A stretch of DNA of 64,000 bases. Source: Ignavibacteriota bacterium. Lineage in GTDB: Bacteria; Bacteroidota; Ignavibacteria; UBA10030; SZUA-254. The position numbers and the translations under genes are program-made. Positions 32,499 to 38,719 of the stretch are shown one piece after another. Location of the stretch: contig JANYJZ010000013.1 of the NCBI GenBank assembly GCA_025358305.1, forward strand, positions 1 to 64,000. Reading direction: 5' to 3'. The notes beneath the pieces were generated by a model. It was not told the DNA's origin. It made no database searches and was given only the letters and a program-made list of their open reading frames with translations. The first letter of the stretch is position 1. The number at the start of each line of letters is the position of its first letter.

Positions 32499-33095
32499 TC
32501 ATCGGGGGAAACGGACCTTCATGATGAGCTCCATGAGCTCGTTCCTGTTCGCCCGGGAGATCTGCCGTCCGGCGATCGGGAGTCCGGGCATGCTCCGGGC
32601 GTAGCGCCGCAGGGCATGGACGGAGAGGGCCTCGATCTCGGCGCGGTACGTCTGTTCGTCGTCGCTCATTGGAACGGGGTCAGGTGCGTGTTCTTCGGCC
32701 GGTGCGCTCTCGGAGGCCGGTGCGGCGGCGGCGCGCTTCGGACGGGCGGGCTGTTTCTCCCGCCGGGGTTTCGGTTCCGCCGCGGGAAGCTGCACCGAGG
32801 GGCGCTCCTTCGTCTGGGACGCCGGCGGAAAGATGAGGATCTCGATCTCGTCGTCGGGACGCGGAATGACATGGACGGAGACGAGTTCGCCGACGCGCTG
32901 CGCTGCCGCTGCGCCGGCGTCGACCGCCGCGCGCACGGCGGCAACGTCGCCGCGGATCTTGATCGTCATGAGACCGGCGTCCGCGCGTTCGCGGCCGAGG
33001 AGCTCGACGTCGGCGGCTTTCGTCGCCGCGTCCGCCGCCTCGATCGCTCCGATCAGACCTCGCGTCTCAATCAATCCTAATGCGTAATCAAGCAT
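32499..33095 (-). CDS. BMC-domain shell protein with long C-terminal extension
   Basis: Residues 1-90 form a hexamer-type bacterial microcompartment domain (LGLIETRGLIGAIEAADAATK, then MTIKIRGDVAAVRAAVDAG and VHVIPRP). The pore loop reads RADAGL, with Asp39 at a position that is usually small and uncharged, hinting at different pore selectivity. A Pro/Ala/Lys/Glu-rich linker (about 95-150) leads to a 45-residue helical C-terminal module ending NRNELMELIMKVRFPR, which resembles a SAP/Rho-N-like fold; that likeness is only visual. It is the second gene of the minus-strand shell operon, 96 bases after the first, with two hairpins between. Confidence 0.9.
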   Translation of the reverse strand: MLDYALGLIETRGLIGAIEAADAATKAADVELLGRERADAGLMTIKIRGDVAAVRAAVDAGAAAAQRVGELVSVHVIPRPDDEIEILIFPPASQTKERPSVQLPAAEPKPRREKQPARPKRAAAAPASESAPAEEHAPDPVPMSDDEQTYRAEIEALSVHALRRYARSMPGLPIAGRQISRANRNELMELIMKVRFPR

Positions 33096-33191: not shown

Positions 33192-33488
33192 TTACTTTCC
33201 CTGAGGGCGTTTGGGGAGAATGAGTTCCACGTCCATATGCGGGCGCGGAATGACATGGACGGAGACGAGCTCGCCGACGCGCTGTGCCGCCGCTGCGCCT
33301 GCATCGGTTGCGGCCTTCACCGCACCGACATCGCCGCGGACCATCACGGTGACATAACCGCCGCCGATGACCTCTTTACCGATCAAGGTGACCTTCGCCG
33401 CCTTCACCATTGCATCCGCTGCTTCGATCGAGCCGACGAGACCTTTGGTCTCAACCATGCCGAGCGCGTCGAGTGAGATATCTGCCAT
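33192..33488 (-). CDS. Bacterial microcompartment hexameric shell protein (PduA/EutM-like)
   Basis: A 98-residue, single-BMC-domain protein that forms hexameric tiles of a microcompartment facet. Near-canonical segments are [40 protein letters not shown] and [19 protein letters not shown], close to PduA and EutM. The central pore loop is IGGGY (Gly42-Gly44), a small neutral pore suited to small metabolites. A strong promoter and AAGGAG site precede it, as expected for an abundant shell component. It faces the aminotransferase operon across a 485-base divergent region. Confidence 0.97.
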
Positions 33489-33538
33489 GAAAAACTCCTT
33501 TCAAACGATAGTAAAAAGACGTAGAAATTCGTGACTCG

Positions 33539-33567
33539 AATATACTCAAACGGGAGCATATTGTCAA
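33539..33567 (-). promoter_or_regulatory. Strong promoter of the BMC-H operon
   Basis: Minus strand: TTGACA (plus 33562-33567), a 17-base spacer, TATATT (33539-33544). It also fits TTG-N20-TATATTCG. It is followed by AAGGAG (33495-33500) 6 bases before the shell-gene ATG, a combination suggesting high expression. Confidence 0.75.
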
Positions 33568-33958
33568 CACACAAGGGCGTTTGGTGGATTTTCGCTTCGT
33601 TTCAGCTGAATGCTCCTCCCGCCGGTCATGCCACGCCTGGAAGTGTGCTCCGGGGCCTCCGGACCCGGGCGCGTGATCCCCGGGCTCCCCGCATGCCGCA
33701 CCCCGCTCTTCCCTGGAGTGCAATCCGCCACGTTCCGCCCCGATCGGAGAAGCGGCGCCGCATCGAGTGTTCACGCTGCTGCTCGGCGGCGGAGAGGCTG
33801 CGATGGACTCCCTCGCAGTCAGCAAAGCACACCAAACGGTCCCGATTCCGCTTTTATTTTTGCCTGCATTTTCGTACAATGGCACTGCAACGACTTCCTT
33901 GTCATTTCGTTCCCGCTTGTTCTTCCCATGAATATGAAAAACCTGAAACGTTGAGATC

Positions 33959-33964
33959 GGAGGT
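33959..33964 (+). promoter_or_regulatory. Strong ribosome-binding site of the aminotransferase gene
   Basis: GGAGGT lies 9 bases before ATG 33974 and fixes the start of the plus-strand BMC operon. Confidence 0.75.
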
Positions 33965-33973
33965 GGACCTTCC

Positions 33974-35191
33974 ATGAGGATAAGCCAGCTCGCGCAATCG
34001 ATCGCAGAGTCGCCGACACTGAAGCTCAATGAAGAGGCGAGGCTTCTTCGTGAGAAAGGCGAAGCGGTGATCCATCTTGGTGCCGGAGAGCCGAAGAACA
34101 AGGCTCCCATCAATGCGATCCTCAGTTCGGCGGCAAAGCTCGTTACCGGCGATGTGAAGTATACGCCGACCGACGGGACGCCGGGCCTCAAGAAGGCCAT
34201 CATCCGCTACACGGAGGAGCATTACGACAGGATGGTCGCCCCGGAGAACGTCATCGTGTCGGCGGGAGCCAAACAGTCGGTCTACAACGTGCTCTATTCG
34301 ATCATCAACCCGCAGGACGAGGTGATCATCCTTGCGCCGTACTGGGTGAGCTACCCGGAAATGGTGCGAATGGTCCTCGGCGTTCCGGTGATCGTGACGC
34401 CGGAAGACGGCACATTCCATCCGAGGATGGAGGACATCACGAAGGTCGTCGGCCCGAATACCAGGGCCATCATCGTCAACAGCCCGAACAATCCCTCCGG
34501 CGCCGTCTATAGCGACGAGTTCATCAAGGAGATCGTCGATTTCTGTGAGACGAAGGGGATCTATCTCATCGTCGATGACATCTACCACAAGTTGATCTTC
34601 GACGGCCGCAAGTCGCCCAACGCCTACAGCCATACGAAGCGGGACATCGAGAACACGATGGTCATCCTCATCAACGGCATCTCAAAGCTCTACGGCATGA
34701 CGGGATTCCGGATCGGCTGGGCGATCGCGAATAAGAAACTCGTGGGCGTCATGACGAACGTCCAGGGACAGATGACCACGACCACGTCCGTCATCCTCCA
34801 GGCCGCGGCGGAAGGGGCGCTTATGGGATTGCAGAGCATCGTGGACAATCTGCGGCTCACCATGGAGAACAACCGGAACATCATGGTGCAGGAGCTCAAA
34901 GGGTTCACCGGCGTGCACATCACCAAGCCGGGCGGCACATTCTACTGCCTGCCTGATTTCAGGGCCTACAAGAAGAGCTCCGTCGAACTCTCCAACCTCC
35001 TGCTGAAGAAGGCGCTGGTCGTCACCGTTCCCGGAAAGGAGTTCGGGATGGAGGGCCACCTCCGCTTGAGCTTCTGCGGCTCCATCAAGGACATCAAACA
35101 GGGAGTTGAACGCATCAAATGGGCGCTTGACCCGAATTCGCCGAACGAGATCTTCATCGGCGACCGCAAGATCGTGAGGGATTGGCTATGA
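33974..35191 (+). CDS. Aspartate-type PLP aminotransferase in BMC operon
   Basis: A 405-residue class I/II (fold type I) aminotransferase. The N-terminus SPTLKLNEEARLLREKGE and IHLGAGEP are typical of bacterial aspartate aminotransferases. SPNNPSGAVY and the PLP-lysine segment NGISKLYGMTGFRIGW (Lys near 237) follow. It likely interconverts aspartate and oxaloacetate, though other amino acids are possible. The last 20 residues (after WALDPNSP, ending IVRDWL) extend past the usual end and could be a cargo-targeting helix; this is speculation. The stop overlaps the pckA start (ATGA), so oxaloacetate made here could pass to that enzyme. Confidence 0.9.
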   Translation: MRISQLAQSIAESPTLKLNEEARLLREKGEAVIHLGAGEPKNKAPINAILSSAAKLVTGDVKYTPTDGTPGLKKAIIRYTEEHYDRMVAPENVIVSAGAKQSVYNVLYSIINPQDEVIILAPYWVSYPEMVRMVLGVPVIVTPEDGTFHPRMEDITKVVGPNTRAIIVNSPNNPSGAVYSDEFIKEIVDFCETKGIYLIVDDIYHKLIFDGRKSPNAYSHTKRDIENTMVILINGISKLYGMTGFRIGWAIANKKLVGVMTNVQGQMTTTTSVILQAAAEGALMGLQSIVDNLRLTMENNRNIMVQELKGFTGVHITKPGGTFYCLPDFRAYKKSSVELSNLLLKKALVVTVPGKEFGMEGHLRLSFCGSIKDIKQGVERIKWALDPNSPNEIFIGDRKIVRDWL

Positions 35192-36828
35192 ACAATCTCC
35201 TGAACATCAAGACCCCCGCGCAGGATCAGGCGAACGCGCTGAAGGCCGATTACGGTCTCGACAACCACGGCCTCATGAACCTGAACACCGTCTTTTGGAA
35301 TCTTCCCACCGAGGCGCTCGTCGAAGAGATCGCATTCCGGGGGGAAGGCCGGCTGTCGCAAGGCGGTCCCGTGATCGTGAATACCGGCAAACACACCGGA
35401 CGGTCCACGAACGACAAGTTTATCGTGAAGGAATCGTCCACCGAAGAACACGTGTGGTGGAGCGAATACAACCGCCCCTTCAGCTCGGAAAAGTTCAACG
35501 AGGTCTATTCCCGCCTTCAAGGATTCCTGCAGGGACGGGACCTGTTCGTTCAGGACTGCTACGCTGGCGCCGATCCGAACTATCGGATCGCCATCCGCGT
35601 CATCACGGAGAAGGCGTGGCATAGCATGTTCGCACGGAACATGTTCATTCTCCCGAAGACCGCAGAAGAATACAAGCGGCACATCCCCGATTTTACGATC
35701 ATGTCCCTTCCGTCGTTCAAGGGACTTCCGCAGATCGACGGCACCGCATCCGAGACCTTCATCCTGCTCAACTTCGAGCAGAAGCTCGCCATCATCGGCA
35801 ACACGGCCTACGGCGGGGAGATCAAGAAGTCCGTCTTCACCATCATGAACTTCCTCCTCCCCCTCGAGGGCGTTCTCTCCATGCACTGCTCGGCGAACAT
35901 CGGCGCCAAGGGGGACTCGGCGCTCTTCTTCGGTCTGTCCGGCACGGGGAAGACGACGCTCTCCGCAGATCCTGCGCGCGGGCTCATCGGCGACGACGAG
36001 CACGGCTGGAGCGACGAAGGCATCTTCAATGTCGAGGGAGGATGCTACGCGAAGGTCATCAGTCTTTCTCCGGCAGCCGAACCTCAGATCTATGACTGCA
36101 CCAGGAGATTCGGCACGGTCCTGGAAAACGTCGTCTTCGACCCGGTCACGCGGAAGATCGATCTCGACGATCCGACGCTGACGGAGAATACGCGCGCATC
36201 CTATCCCCTCGAATATATCGTCAACGCCGTGCCGGAGAAGATGGGCGGCCATCCCGCCAACATCATCCTTCTAACGTGCGACGGCTCCGGGGTGCTTCCG
36301 CCGATCGCACGGCTCACGCCGGAGCAGGCGATGTACCAGTTCATCTCTGGCTACACGACGAAGGTCGCCGGCACGGAAATGGGGCTCGGCAAGGAGCCGG
36401 AACTGACCTTCAGCGCCTGTTTTGGCGCGCCGTTCATGGTCCATCACCCGGCCGTCTACGCCGACTTGCTGAGGCGGAAGATGCTCAAGTACGGCGCGAC
36501 CTGCTGGCTTGTCAACACGGGCTGGGTCGGCGGGCCGTACGGCGTCGGCAAGCGCATCAGCATCAAGTACACGCGCGCGCTCTTGAACGCGGCGCTCGGC
36601 GGCAGCCTCCAGAATGTCACATTCTGGACAGATCCCGTCTTCGGGTTCCAGGTGCCCGAAGCGTGTGAAGGCATACCGCCGGGCGTCCTCATGCCCGCAT
36701 CGTCCTGGCCGGACAAGAAGGTCTACGCGCAGAAGTATGCGCAGCTCGCTTCCCGGTTCATCGAGAATTTCAAGAAGTTCGAGGAAGGATGTCCGCCCGA
36801 AGTGATCCGGGCCGGGCCGAAACTGTGA
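35188..36828 (+). CDS. pckA: Phosphoenolpyruvate carboxykinase (ATP)
   Basis: Converts oxaloacetate and ATP to PEP, ADP and CO2, and can run in reverse. The 546-residue enzyme has the NTGKHTGRSTNDKFIV segment near residue 75, the kinase P-loop GLSGTGKTTLSADP (from about 249), the metal site GDDEHGW, and NTGWVGGPYGVGKRI near 440. The start ATG 35188 overlaps the aminotransferase stop. The N-terminal 25 residues differ from common PckA but show no clear targeting helix. A PCK in a BMC gene set is not a known signature enzyme. The PduS-like gene follows after 22 bases. Confidence 0.96.
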   Translation: MNNLLNIKTPAQDQANALKADYGLDNHGLMNLNTVFWNLPTEALVEEIAFRGEGRLSQGGPVIVNTGKHTGRSTNDKFIVKESSTEEHVWWSEYNRPFSSEKFNEVYSRLQGFLQGRDLFVQDCYAGADPNYRIAIRVITEKAWHSMFARNMFILPKTAEEYKRHIPDFTIMSLPSFKGLPQIDGTASETFILLNFEQKLAIIGNTAYGGEIKKSVFTIMNFLLPLEGVLSMHCSANIGAKGDSALFFGLSGTGKTTLSADPARGLIGDDEHGWSDEGIFNVEGGCYAKVISLSPAAEPQIYDCTRRFGTVLENVVFDPVTRKIDLDDPTLTENTRASYPLEYIVNAVPEKMGGHPANIILLTCDGSGVLPPIARLTPEQAMYQFISGYTTKVAGTEMGLGKEPELTFSACFGAPFMVHHPAVYADLLRRKMLKYGATCWLVNTGWVGGPYGVGKRISIKYTRALLNAALGGSLQNVTFWTDPVFGFQVPEACEGIPPGVLMPASSWPDKKVYAQKYAQLASRFIENFKKFEEGCPPEVIRAGPKL

Positions 36829-36850: not shown

Positions 36851-38164
36851 ATGAACCTCTCTGACAAGATACGGAACGCCGGCGTCGTCGGCGCCGGCGG
36901 CGGCGGGTTCCCCGCCCACGTCAAAGCCGGCGCAACGGTCGAGATCGTGATCGCCAACGGCGCCGAGTGCGAGCCGCTGATCCACAAGGATTATGAGATC
37001 ATGGTCCGTCATCCCGACAAGGTGGTCGAGGGGATGCTGCTGCTCATGGAAGCGACCGGAGCGAAGCAGGGGATCATCGGGATCAAAGAAAAGAACACGG
37101 AGGCCGTCGAAGCGATCTCGGGCGCGATCCGGGACGGGCGCATCACGATCCATCTGCTCGGCGATTTCTACCCCTCGGGCGATGAATACATTCTCGTGTA
37201 CGAATCGACCCGAAGGCTGATACCTCCCCAGGGCATCCCGCTCGACATCGGCGTCGTCGTGAACAATGTCGAGACGCTCTATAACATATCACTCGCTTCC
37301 GCAGATCAACCGGTGACGGAGAAATTCATCACGGTCGCGGGAGCCGTGGCTCATCCGGCTTCATTCCTCGCTCCGATCGGCACGAGCCTCGGCGATGCCA
37401 TTGCCCATGCCGGCGAGGCGAACGTGAAGGAGTTTGCCTCGTTTGTCGGCGGCATCATGATGGGAAAGCTCGAATTCGATCTTGACCAGCCGATCACGAA
37501 GACGACCTCCGGGATCATCGTGTTGCCGTTGGAACACAGCCTTGTGCAGCGGAAGAGCCGCCCGGAACAGTCCATGCACAGGATAGGCAAATCCGCGTGC
37601 GACCAGTGCAGCTACTGCACCGAGCTCTGTCCGCGGTACCTTCTCGGGTATGATGTTCAGCCGCACAAGGTCATGCGGGGGCTCGGATTCACGATGAGCG
37701 GGGAACAACTCTGGAATCAGTCTGCTTCGCTCTGCTGCTCCTGCGGACTCTGCACCCTCTATGCGTGCCCGGAAGCCCTATATCCAAAGGAAGCGTGCGA
37801 CAAGGCGAAGCTCGACATGAAGACCGGGGGGATCCAATGGTCCGGCCGGAAGGAGGTCGATCCGCATCCGATGTACGAAGGACGCCGCACTCCGCTCGCT
37901 CAGATCATGAAACGCCTCGGCATCGAAGGATACAACCATCCTTCGGTGTTCGATCAGAAACAATGCCTCCCGAAGCGCGTCGCCATCCCTCTATCCCAGC
38001 ACATCGGGACGCCGGCACATCCCGTGGTGCGGGTGGGCGAGTCTGTTGCGCGCGGCCAGTGCCTGGGAGAGATCCCAGCGGGAACACTGGGCGCTCGCAT
38101 CCATGCGAGCATCGACGGCGTGGTGAAGAACATCGACCACAAGATTCTCATTGAAAGAGAGTAG
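36851..38164 (+). CDS. PduS/RnfC-like Fe-S flavoprotein
   Basis: A 437-residue electron-transfer protein of the RnfC/NuoF-like group, closest in layout to PduS, the cobalamin reductase of propanediol microcompartments. A Gly-rich nucleotide loop (VGAGGGGFPAHVK) opens it, followed by NGAECEPLIHKDYEIM for NADH/FMN binding and an SLBB-like region near 165-230. Two ferredoxin-type clusters follow: CDQCSYCTELCP (from about 252) and CCSCGLCTLYACP (from about 298). The C-terminal 70 residues resemble the RnfC hairpin. It lies 3 bases before a PduT-like shell gene, the same pairing as in pdu operons, where electrons may cross the shell. Confidence 0.92.
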   Translation: MNLSDKIRNAGVVGAGGGGFPAHVKAGATVEIVIANGAECEPLIHKDYEIMVRHPDKVVEGMLLLMEATGAKQGIIGIKEKNTEAVEAISGAIRDGRITIHLLGDFYPSGDEYILVYESTRRLIPPQGIPLDIGVVVNNVETLYNISLASADQPVTEKFITVAGAVAHPASFLAPIGTSLGDAIAHAGEANVKEFASFVGGIMMGKLEFDLDQPITKTTSGIIVLPLEHSLVQRKSRPEQSMHRIGKSACDQCSYCTELCPRYLLGYDVQPHKVMRGLGFTMSGEQLWNQSASLCCSCGLCTLYACPEALYPKEACDKAKLDMKTGGIQWSGRKEVDPHPMYEGRRTPLAQIMKRLGIEGYNHPSVFDQKQCLPKRVAIPLSQHIGTPAHPVVRVGESVARGQCLGEIPAGTLGARIHASIDGVVKNIDHKILIERE

Positions 38165-38167
38165 GAC

Positions 38168-38719
38168 ATGGTAAAGAACGCGATCGGACTCATTGAACTC
38201 TCGAGCATCGCCGCCGGATACGAGGTAGCTGACTCGATGCTCAAAACGGCGGACGTGGAGATCATTCTCTCACGCTCGATCTGTTCCGGAAAGTACATGG
38301 TGCTCATCGGCGGCGATGTCGCGGCCATTGCCGCGAGCGTACAGGCGGGCGGGGTCACCGGCAGGGGGTCCATCATTGACGCCTTCATCATACCCAATGT
38401 TCATCCGGCTGTGTTCCCCGCGATCGCCGGGTCGAGCAACGTCTCCCTTCTTCAGGCGCTCGGCATCATTGAGTCCTTCTCGGTCGCATCGCTCATTGAA
38501 GGAGCGGACGCCGCCGTAAAAGCGGCCAACGTGGAGTTGATCGAAATTCGGTTGGCGATGGCGCTGGGCGGGAAGGCCTTTGTCACCCTCACCGGCGACG
38601 TGGCCGCCGTCCAGGCGGCCGTGGATGCCGGCGCGGCCGTGATCGCAAAGAAGGGACTGCTGGTGAACAAGGTCGTGATCCCGCAGCCGCGGAAGGAACT
38701 GTTGTCCGAGATCATCTGA
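38168..38719 (+). CDS. Tandem-BMC shell protein, PduT-like
   Basis: A 183-residue protein made of two BMC domains (about 1-90 and 95-180), which form trimers that mimic hexamers. The first domain's pore loop carries Cys39 in SRSICSGKYMV, at the place where PduT binds a central 4Fe-4S cluster through one Cys of each subunit. The second domain starts ALGIIESFSVASLIEGADAAVKAANVE and keeps VTLTGDVAAVQAAVDAG. With the PduS-like gene just upstream this is likely an electron conduit through the shell. Cluster binding is inferred from the family. Confidence 0.95.
   Translation: MVKNAIGLIELSSIAAGYEVADSMLKTADVEIILSRSICSGKYMVLIGGDVAAIAASVQAGGVTGRGSIIDAFIIPNVHPAVFPAIAGSSNVSLLQALGIIESFSVASLIEGADAAVKAANVELIEIRLAMALGGKAFVTLTGDVAAVQAAVDAGAAVIAKKGLLVNKVVIPQPRKELLSEII

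Follow-up and report, generated by a model that had tools for sequence, protein, structure and literature searches.

A PduS/PduT-like gene pair as a candidate accessory redox module of a FRAG-like microcompartment in an Ignavibacteriota bacterium

Introduction

The closest well-described relatives of the gene pair studied here are PduS and PduT of the propanediol (PDU) microcompartment of Citrobacter and Salmonella. In C. freundii, PduS is a flavoprotein that depends on NADH, has two coupled 4Fe-4S centres and co-purifies with PduT, and it was proposed that electrons pass out of the compartment via these two proteins (PMC2982820). The cluster of PduT has a potential of +99 mV, which suits electrons from NADH (PMC6325248). 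Homologues of PduS and PduT have also been reported in B12-independent compartments of the GRM, SPU, MUF and MIC types, with PduS beside PduT where the gene order is described, and a role in electron export has already been published for them (PMC4207490, PMC6325248). The MIC locus of Caldithrix abyssi, with AldDH, a Pta-type PTAC and PduS, is described in the same papers as being without a signature enzyme. Fragmented (FRAG) compartments are recognised by shell genes that are dispersed over the genome and by a BMC-P triplet. They have an aldehyde dehydrogenase but no signature enzyme, occur in Ignavibacteriae and related phyla among others, and have been called enigmatic, most of their genes lying far from those of any known enzyme (PMC8217296). 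PduS is not mentioned in the main text of that paper, supplement aside, and none of the titles and abstract openings listed in literature searches concerned PduS/PduT in FRAG compartments.

Here we analysed such a pair in a window of 64,000 nucleotides from an Ignavibacteriota bacterium (GCA_025358305.1, contig JANYJZ010000013.1, positions 1 to 64,000). The pair shares with the PDU proteins the PduS domains, the two four-cysteine motifs and the pore cysteine of the BMC-T. It differs in that the shell genes are scattered, no PduL was found, the BMC-T falls below the PduT equivalog cut-off and no diol dehydratase was found with a model that was silent in the controls as well. As in GRM, SPU, MUF and MIC compartments, the setting is probably B12-independent and the same conduit hypothesis applies; by contrast, the pair forms a detached two-gene locus instead of being part of the main locus, in a genome where no glycyl radical enzyme was found. 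With FRAG the organism shares the scattered shell genes, three BMC-P genes, its place among Ignavibacteria and related phyla, and an aldehyde dehydrogenase with no signature enzyme alongside.

Results

The two proteins of the pair

The coordinates of the pair and of the other features discussed are given in Table 1. The Pfam matches of the PduS-like protein (Complex1_51K, SLBB, Fer4_17 and RnfC_N) reproduce the domain list given for PduS, which consists of Complex1_51K, SLBB, a Fer4 dicluster and a C-terminal RnfC_N (PMC6325248). Its four-cysteine motifs are C250/C253/C256/C260 and C295 (or C296)/C298/C301/C306. As in PduS, both motifs are complete, and the eight cluster cysteines did not vary across 19 aligned sequences, which were the window protein and 18 others picked from 30 PduS loci. 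The claim of an earlier note on this DNA that both motifs are kept thus held over the whole alignment.

Table 1. Features of the pair, its neighbourhood and the candidate cargo gene. Positions are those of the window, except in the last row.
Feature	Position	Strand	Length	Remarks
BMC-H shell protein 2	32499..33095	-	198 aa	C-terminal extension, approximately residues 90-198
BMC-H shell protein 1	33192..33488	-	98 aa	Passes NCBIfam EutM cut-off (135.6 vs 133 bits)
Class I/II aminotransferase	33974..35191	+		First of four closely spaced genes on one strand, the last being BMC-T
ATP-dependent phosphoenolpyruvate carboxykinase (PEPCK)	35182..36828	+		Member of the same four-gene run
PduS-like flavin/iron-sulfur oxidoreductase	36851..38164	+	437 aa	Complex1_51K, SLBB, two four-cysteine motifs, C-terminal RnfC_N
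PduT-like tandem BMC-T shell protein	38168..38719	+	183 aa	Two Pfam BMC domains; pore-position Cys39
CoA-acylating acetaldehyde dehydrogenase with C-terminal tail	C19:11980-13608			One of six Aldedh matches in the genome

To place the PduS-like fold, we compared a predicted structure with the PDB. The best matches were to RnfC, with an NADH-bound Rnf complex at rank 1, followed by NuoF-type subunits, all with TM of about 0.5. The NADH/FMN region of the model is usable and the cluster region is poor (pLDDT <50 for the dicluster domain, residues 243-320). The fold thus resembles NADH-bound RnfC and NuoF, and the protein is predicted to oxidise NADH with FMN and two 4Fe-4S clusters.

Cys39 of the BMC-T aligned with a cysteine in 3pac and in the best match, 3nwg, and with a serine in 3n79, a C38S variant of PduT. 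It therefore occupies the place of PduT Cys38, the pore position at which the earlier note had put it. The residue did not vary among 32 BMC-T sequences; 17 of these, the nearer relatives, were selected with a motif that includes Cys39 itself. Among 68 BMC-T sequences chosen regardless of this residue, taken from the best 80 (L112-L191) of at least 569 relatives, it was a cysteine in 67 and masked by N in the remaining one. The pore of the BMC-T trimer would hold a putative 4Fe-4S cluster at Cys39. The NCBIfam PduT equivalog TIGR02526 scored the BMC-T at 118.4 bits against a cut-off of 250.3 bits, and the NCBIfam rnfC subfamily model scored the PduS-like protein at 240.8 bits, just below its cut-off of 245.95 bits. 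For this reason we use "-like" names for both proteins.

Surroundings of the pair

The open reading frame coordinates confirmed that the two genes are 3 bases apart. Upstream in the same run, PEPCK, taken from its first possible start, shares 10 bases with the aminotransferase gene and ends 22 bases short of the PduS-like gene. No aminotransferase-PEPCK adjacency was seen by eye at the relatives' PduS loci inspected, and the two enzymes are probably neighbours only. This run and the BMC-H genes diverge from 485 bases (33489-33973). A sigma-70-like promoter match (11/12, 33567-33539, minus strand) lies just upstream of the BMC-H pair; promoter matches in this region were no commoner than in shuffles (1 vs a mean of 1.6).

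To view the pair more widely, we surveyed genome contigs, confirmed at least 569 PduS relatives and analysed the best 80. These span Ignavibacteria, Acidobacteria, Verrucomicrobia, Armatimonadetes, KSB1 and others, and the closest named matches among those listed were from Ignavibacteriae bacteria. In 75 of these best 80 loci, the stretch with the PduS-like gene also carries a BMC-T. The models used detected no other shell gene on 74 of the 75 stretches, a count that may miss some genes because many stretches are short or end at contig ends and the BMC-P model consisted of two copies of one sequence. In three of the five loci lacking BMC-T, PduS is less than 350 bases away from where the contig stops; in the other two (L148 and L176) tblastn found no BMC-T on the stretch, though the contig continues.

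A Pfam scan of 97 open reading frames beside the pair at 30 loci, a set mainly from outside Ignavibacteria that leaves out L174, gave no family that matched more than two frames. The frames were chosen by length, those above 900 aa or cut by the end of a stretch were dropped, and in high-GC genomes the wrong strand may have been read for some of them. The neighbours were also varied in Ignavibacteria relatives, except for an upstream phosphatase gene in many Melioribacteraceae loci. With no recurrent family beside the pair, we dropped the neighbouring genes as a guide to function. Together, these data indicate that the pair itself is the conserved unit.

Several local arrangements were seen among the relatives. 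The phosphatase is of the SpoIIE type (L168:4912-6147, with Pfam run for L168 only); its homology cluster was present in 29 of the best 80 of at least 569 loci and, by coordinates, directly adjoined the start of the PduS-like gene in 25 of these 29. In L048, L050, L062 and L064 small unrelated genes, mobile or accessory-looking by eye, lie between PduS-like and BMC-T and do not separate the pair further. In one genus (g19; L053 and L057) a 3-hydroxyacyl-CoA dehydrogenase gene precedes the PduS-like gene (with Pfam run for L057 only). L053 also has an acetate-kinase-like gene close to BMC-T; the cluster of this kinase occurs in 4 of the best 80 of at least 569 loci. A gene for a PALP (PLP-dependent) enzyme is directly upstream of the PduS-like gene at L124:415-1875 (Pfam for L124), and by eye it or a look-alike has the same place in several genomes of family f1.

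Among the best 80 of at least 569 loci, only L174, from KSB1, showed other shell genes beside the pair. This consolidated locus (L174:5261-14645) holds a DeoR-like regulator, three BMC-P, an RpiB-like protein, PduS, BMC-T, PduL, AldDh, BMC-H, a class II aldolase and an acetate-kinase-like gene; the regulator, an encapsulation-peptide-like (EP-like) tail on the aldolase and the acetate-kinase-like gene were assigned by eye. Its PduS-like and BMC-T proteins are 54% and 68% identical to those of the window. L174 is PVM/SPU-like and has a similar pair, but within one locus, and this locus, which joins the pair to PduL, AldDh and a class II aldolase, offers a possible model for the missing source of aldehyde.

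A scattered shell and a candidate cargo enzyme

Two BMC-H genes lie 3.4 kb upstream of the pair. The genome (3.21 Mb, 42 contigs) contains only four BMC domains, all within the window, which are the two of BMC-T and those of the two BMC-H proteins. Three BMC-P genes are on two other contigs amid unrelated-looking genes. The shell genes are thus at several places (BMC-H pair and BMC-T on C8, two BMC-P on C19, one BMC-P on C12) and include a BMC-P triplet, and on these two marks we assign the pair to a fragmented (FRAG-like) microcompartment. The interpretation in the earlier note, of an electron conduit outside a propanediol operon, is partly supported; it had not linked the nearby BMC-H genes and the scattered shell to the pair.

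Residues 100-198 of BMC-H 2 gave no Pfam match at E 0.1, and by eye the end of this extension resembles a small helical SAP-like motif. BMC-H 1 passes the EutM cut-off, and automatic annotation would label it as ethanolamine-related. The same annotation effect may lie behind a 2025 study in which the detection of EutM in a Melioribacteraceae bacterium was taken as a sign that it uses ethanolamine (PMC12583861).

The earlier note had suggested that the conduit might serve an internal dehydrogenase encoded elsewhere. A gene on contig C19, approximately 12 kb from the two BMC-P genes there, fits this description. It passed the model for acetylating acetaldehyde dehydrogenase, TIGR02518, by a margin of 0.5 bit (620.6 vs 620.1 bits), and its best solved relative is 5j78. 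The protein has a C-terminal extension ending in a tail that is conserved across 30 orthologues. When the genome was searched with a profile of the tail, which would miss tails of unlike sequence, this dehydrogenase was the sole strong match (E 7.6e-12; next 0.39). The weaker matches (E of at least 0.39) were discarded; by eye they lie inside a ribosomal L10-like gene or other unrelated genes. The tail is modestly amphipathic (13 of 30 tails scored higher than the 95th percentile of their own shuffles), and we therefore treat its function as an encapsulation peptide as a prediction. We consider this enzyme the best candidate for cargo, which would be encapsulated. PduL had no match in the genome, and Aldedh had six. 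In this genome (L015:2351-2776, minus strand) and several relatives a PCC/DUF296-domain gene lies between a gene that is RuvB-like by eye and the tailed dehydrogenase.

B12-dependent and glycyl radical enzymes

The earlier note had placed the pair outside a propanediol locus with no cobalamin-dependent enzyme nearby. By eye, we saw no such enzyme among the listed open reading frames of the window, a list that leaves out short frames, and no B12 enzyme in the flanks of the pair inspected in relatives; the placement outside a PDU locus is borne out. Diol dehydratase had no match in any of the 80 genomes, but no control genome matched either, so this absence carries little weight. We also looked for a glycyl-radical locus, which the note had named as grounds for dropping its reading. 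The glycyl radical enzyme family (PF02901) had no match in the organism's own genome, with 3 of 14 control genomes positive, and on this basis we rejected a GRM compartment for it. This absence concerns this genome and not the whole FRAG-like group. The enzyme was present in 19 of the 80 genomes, including some PduS-positive FRAG-like relatives (for example G007, G018 and G042).

Co-occurrence of the pair, the shell and the dehydrogenase

We compared the distribution of these genes across 80 genomes, the organism's own included, of which 57 have BMC genes and 23 are shell-free. Orthologues were called at no less than 60% identity for the dehydrogenase and no less than 57% for PduS. Orthologues of the tailed dehydrogenase were present in 50 of the 57 shell-bearing genomes compared to 0 of the 23 shell-free genomes; because the genomes are related, Fisher values overstate the independence of these counts. 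Two of the exceptions, G009 and G014, are genomes that are incomplete; the remaining five of the seven (G031, G043, G064, G076 and G079) have other BMC sets and a diverged PduS of 41-47% identity.

PduS orthologues were found in 31 of the 80 genomes, none of them shell-free. The tailed dehydrogenase was in 29 of these 31, and the other two genomes are incomplete. At least four BMC domains were present in 28 of the 31; G011, G034 and G069, the three with fewer, are assemblies in 330 to 610 pieces (contigs). By contrast, 21 of the 50 dehydrogenase genomes lacked a PduS orthologue. One of these (G054) has a PduS of 42% identity in a different BMC locus. The other 20, some of which are incomplete (G012, G062 and G078), have no PduS of any kind and exactly two BMC domains. 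In 19 of the 20 the two domains fall in separate open frames and so represent a BMC-H pair, and in G068 one domain is unlisted; it follows that BMC-T is absent from these genomes as well. PduS-like and BMC-T are thus almost always present or absent together in the 80 genomes. The pair is an accessory module of the compartment, an option and not a requirement. Since 20 genomes have the shell and the dehydrogenase without the module, NADH re-oxidation by the module cannot be essential.

On a tree of 30 dehydrogenases (14 from genomes with PduS, 16 from genomes without), the PduS label needs 8 changes, at least 5 of which are forced by well supported branches; gains and losses are indistinguishable on this tree. 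Because 48 and 61 of 500 label shuffles equalled the real label, the label is hardly clustered. Distances between PduS proteins correlated with those between dehydrogenases (rho 0.45, 13 genomes), and BMC-T distances correlated with PduS distances (rho 0.67, 11 genomes). These correlations indicate that inheritance has been partly vertical.

Discussion

We propose that the pair is an accessory redox module of a FRAG-like compartment that oxidises luminal NADH and passes electrons outward, a reading to which we give about an even chance. In this mechanism, the tailed dehydrogenase inside the shell would convert an aldehyde, NAD+ and CoA to acyl-CoA and NADH. This NADH would be oxidised with FMN by the PduS-like protein, which would be docked on the PduT-like trimer from the luminal side. 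The two 4Fe-4S clusters of the PduS-like protein would relay single electrons to a further 4Fe-4S cluster, held in the pore of the trimer by its three Cys39 residues, and the electrons would finally reach a cytosolic acceptor. Electron export is the best reading because the tailed dehydrogenase is an NADH-producing enzyme and no other protein with its tail was found.

The pair might instead be a PDU-style corrin reductase that maintains reduced cobalamin for a B12 enzyme whose gene lies elsewhere; the most plausible such enzyme is an ethanolamine ammonia-lyase, which would feed acetaldehyde to the tailed dehydrogenase. C. freundii PduS binds and reduces cobalamin (PMC2982820), EUT2B and EUT2D loci carry PduS (PMC4207490), and the candidate cargo dehydrogenase is of the acetaldehyde type. 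We consider this unlikely given that inspection by eye gave no B12 enzyme in the window or the inspected flanks of the pair, and that no diol dehydratase was found in the 80 genomes, where the controls were also silent.

The repeated absence of the module, with its many changes on the dehydrogenase tree, is in line with a different account, in which the PduS-like protein either converts aldehyde to alcohol or is carried along as a vestige, and BMC-T is mainly structural or a metabolite pore. Both alternatives for PduS have been raised for candidate-phylum loci (PMC4207490). Against this, the cluster ligands and the pore cysteine are kept over wide divergence and the two genes nearly always come and go together, which makes this account improbable to us.

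Acylating dehydrogenases are reversible, and electrons could run inward, from a cytosolic reductant to the PduT-like cluster and on to PduS, to supply luminal NADH for the reverse reaction (acyl-CoA to aldehyde) or a reduced mediator. Electron supply to the lumen has been discussed for glycyl-radical compartments (PMC6325248). However, the potential of the PduT cluster (+99 mV) relative to that of NADH (-320 mV) favours export (PMC6325248), and a second protein with the dehydrogenase tail was not found in the genome; we would be rather surprised if the flow were inward. That the PduS-like protein is an ordinary RnfC subunit next to a shell gene by chance, as its best PDB matches and its near miss of the rnfC cut-off could suggest, is very improbable and we rejected it, since that cut-off is missed, RnfC_N is C-terminal (residues 371-431) in the PduS order as described (PMC6325248), the genome's only other Complex1_51K protein looks like NuoF, no Rnf genes lie alongside, and BMC-T is the partner in nearly all of the best 80 of at least 569 loci.

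By presence and absence, then, the scattered shells are linked to one tailed dehydrogenase and the PduS/PduT-like pair shows the pattern of an accessory unit in its own right. The result is a small, co-expressible gene set that is suited to testing electron export through a shell. If the shell does export electrons, this would explain how NAD+ is recovered in a compartment for which no alcohol dehydrogenase partner is known. It is possible, and we suggest it tentatively as a doubtful generalisation, that FRAG is a minimal "respiring" metabolosome. Such a compartment would contain one tagged acetylating aldehyde dehydrogenase, and its NAD+ would be regenerated not by alcohol formation but via an iron-sulfur plug in the shell that leads to cytosolic respiration, with the plug being gained or dropped according to the acceptors available to each lineage.
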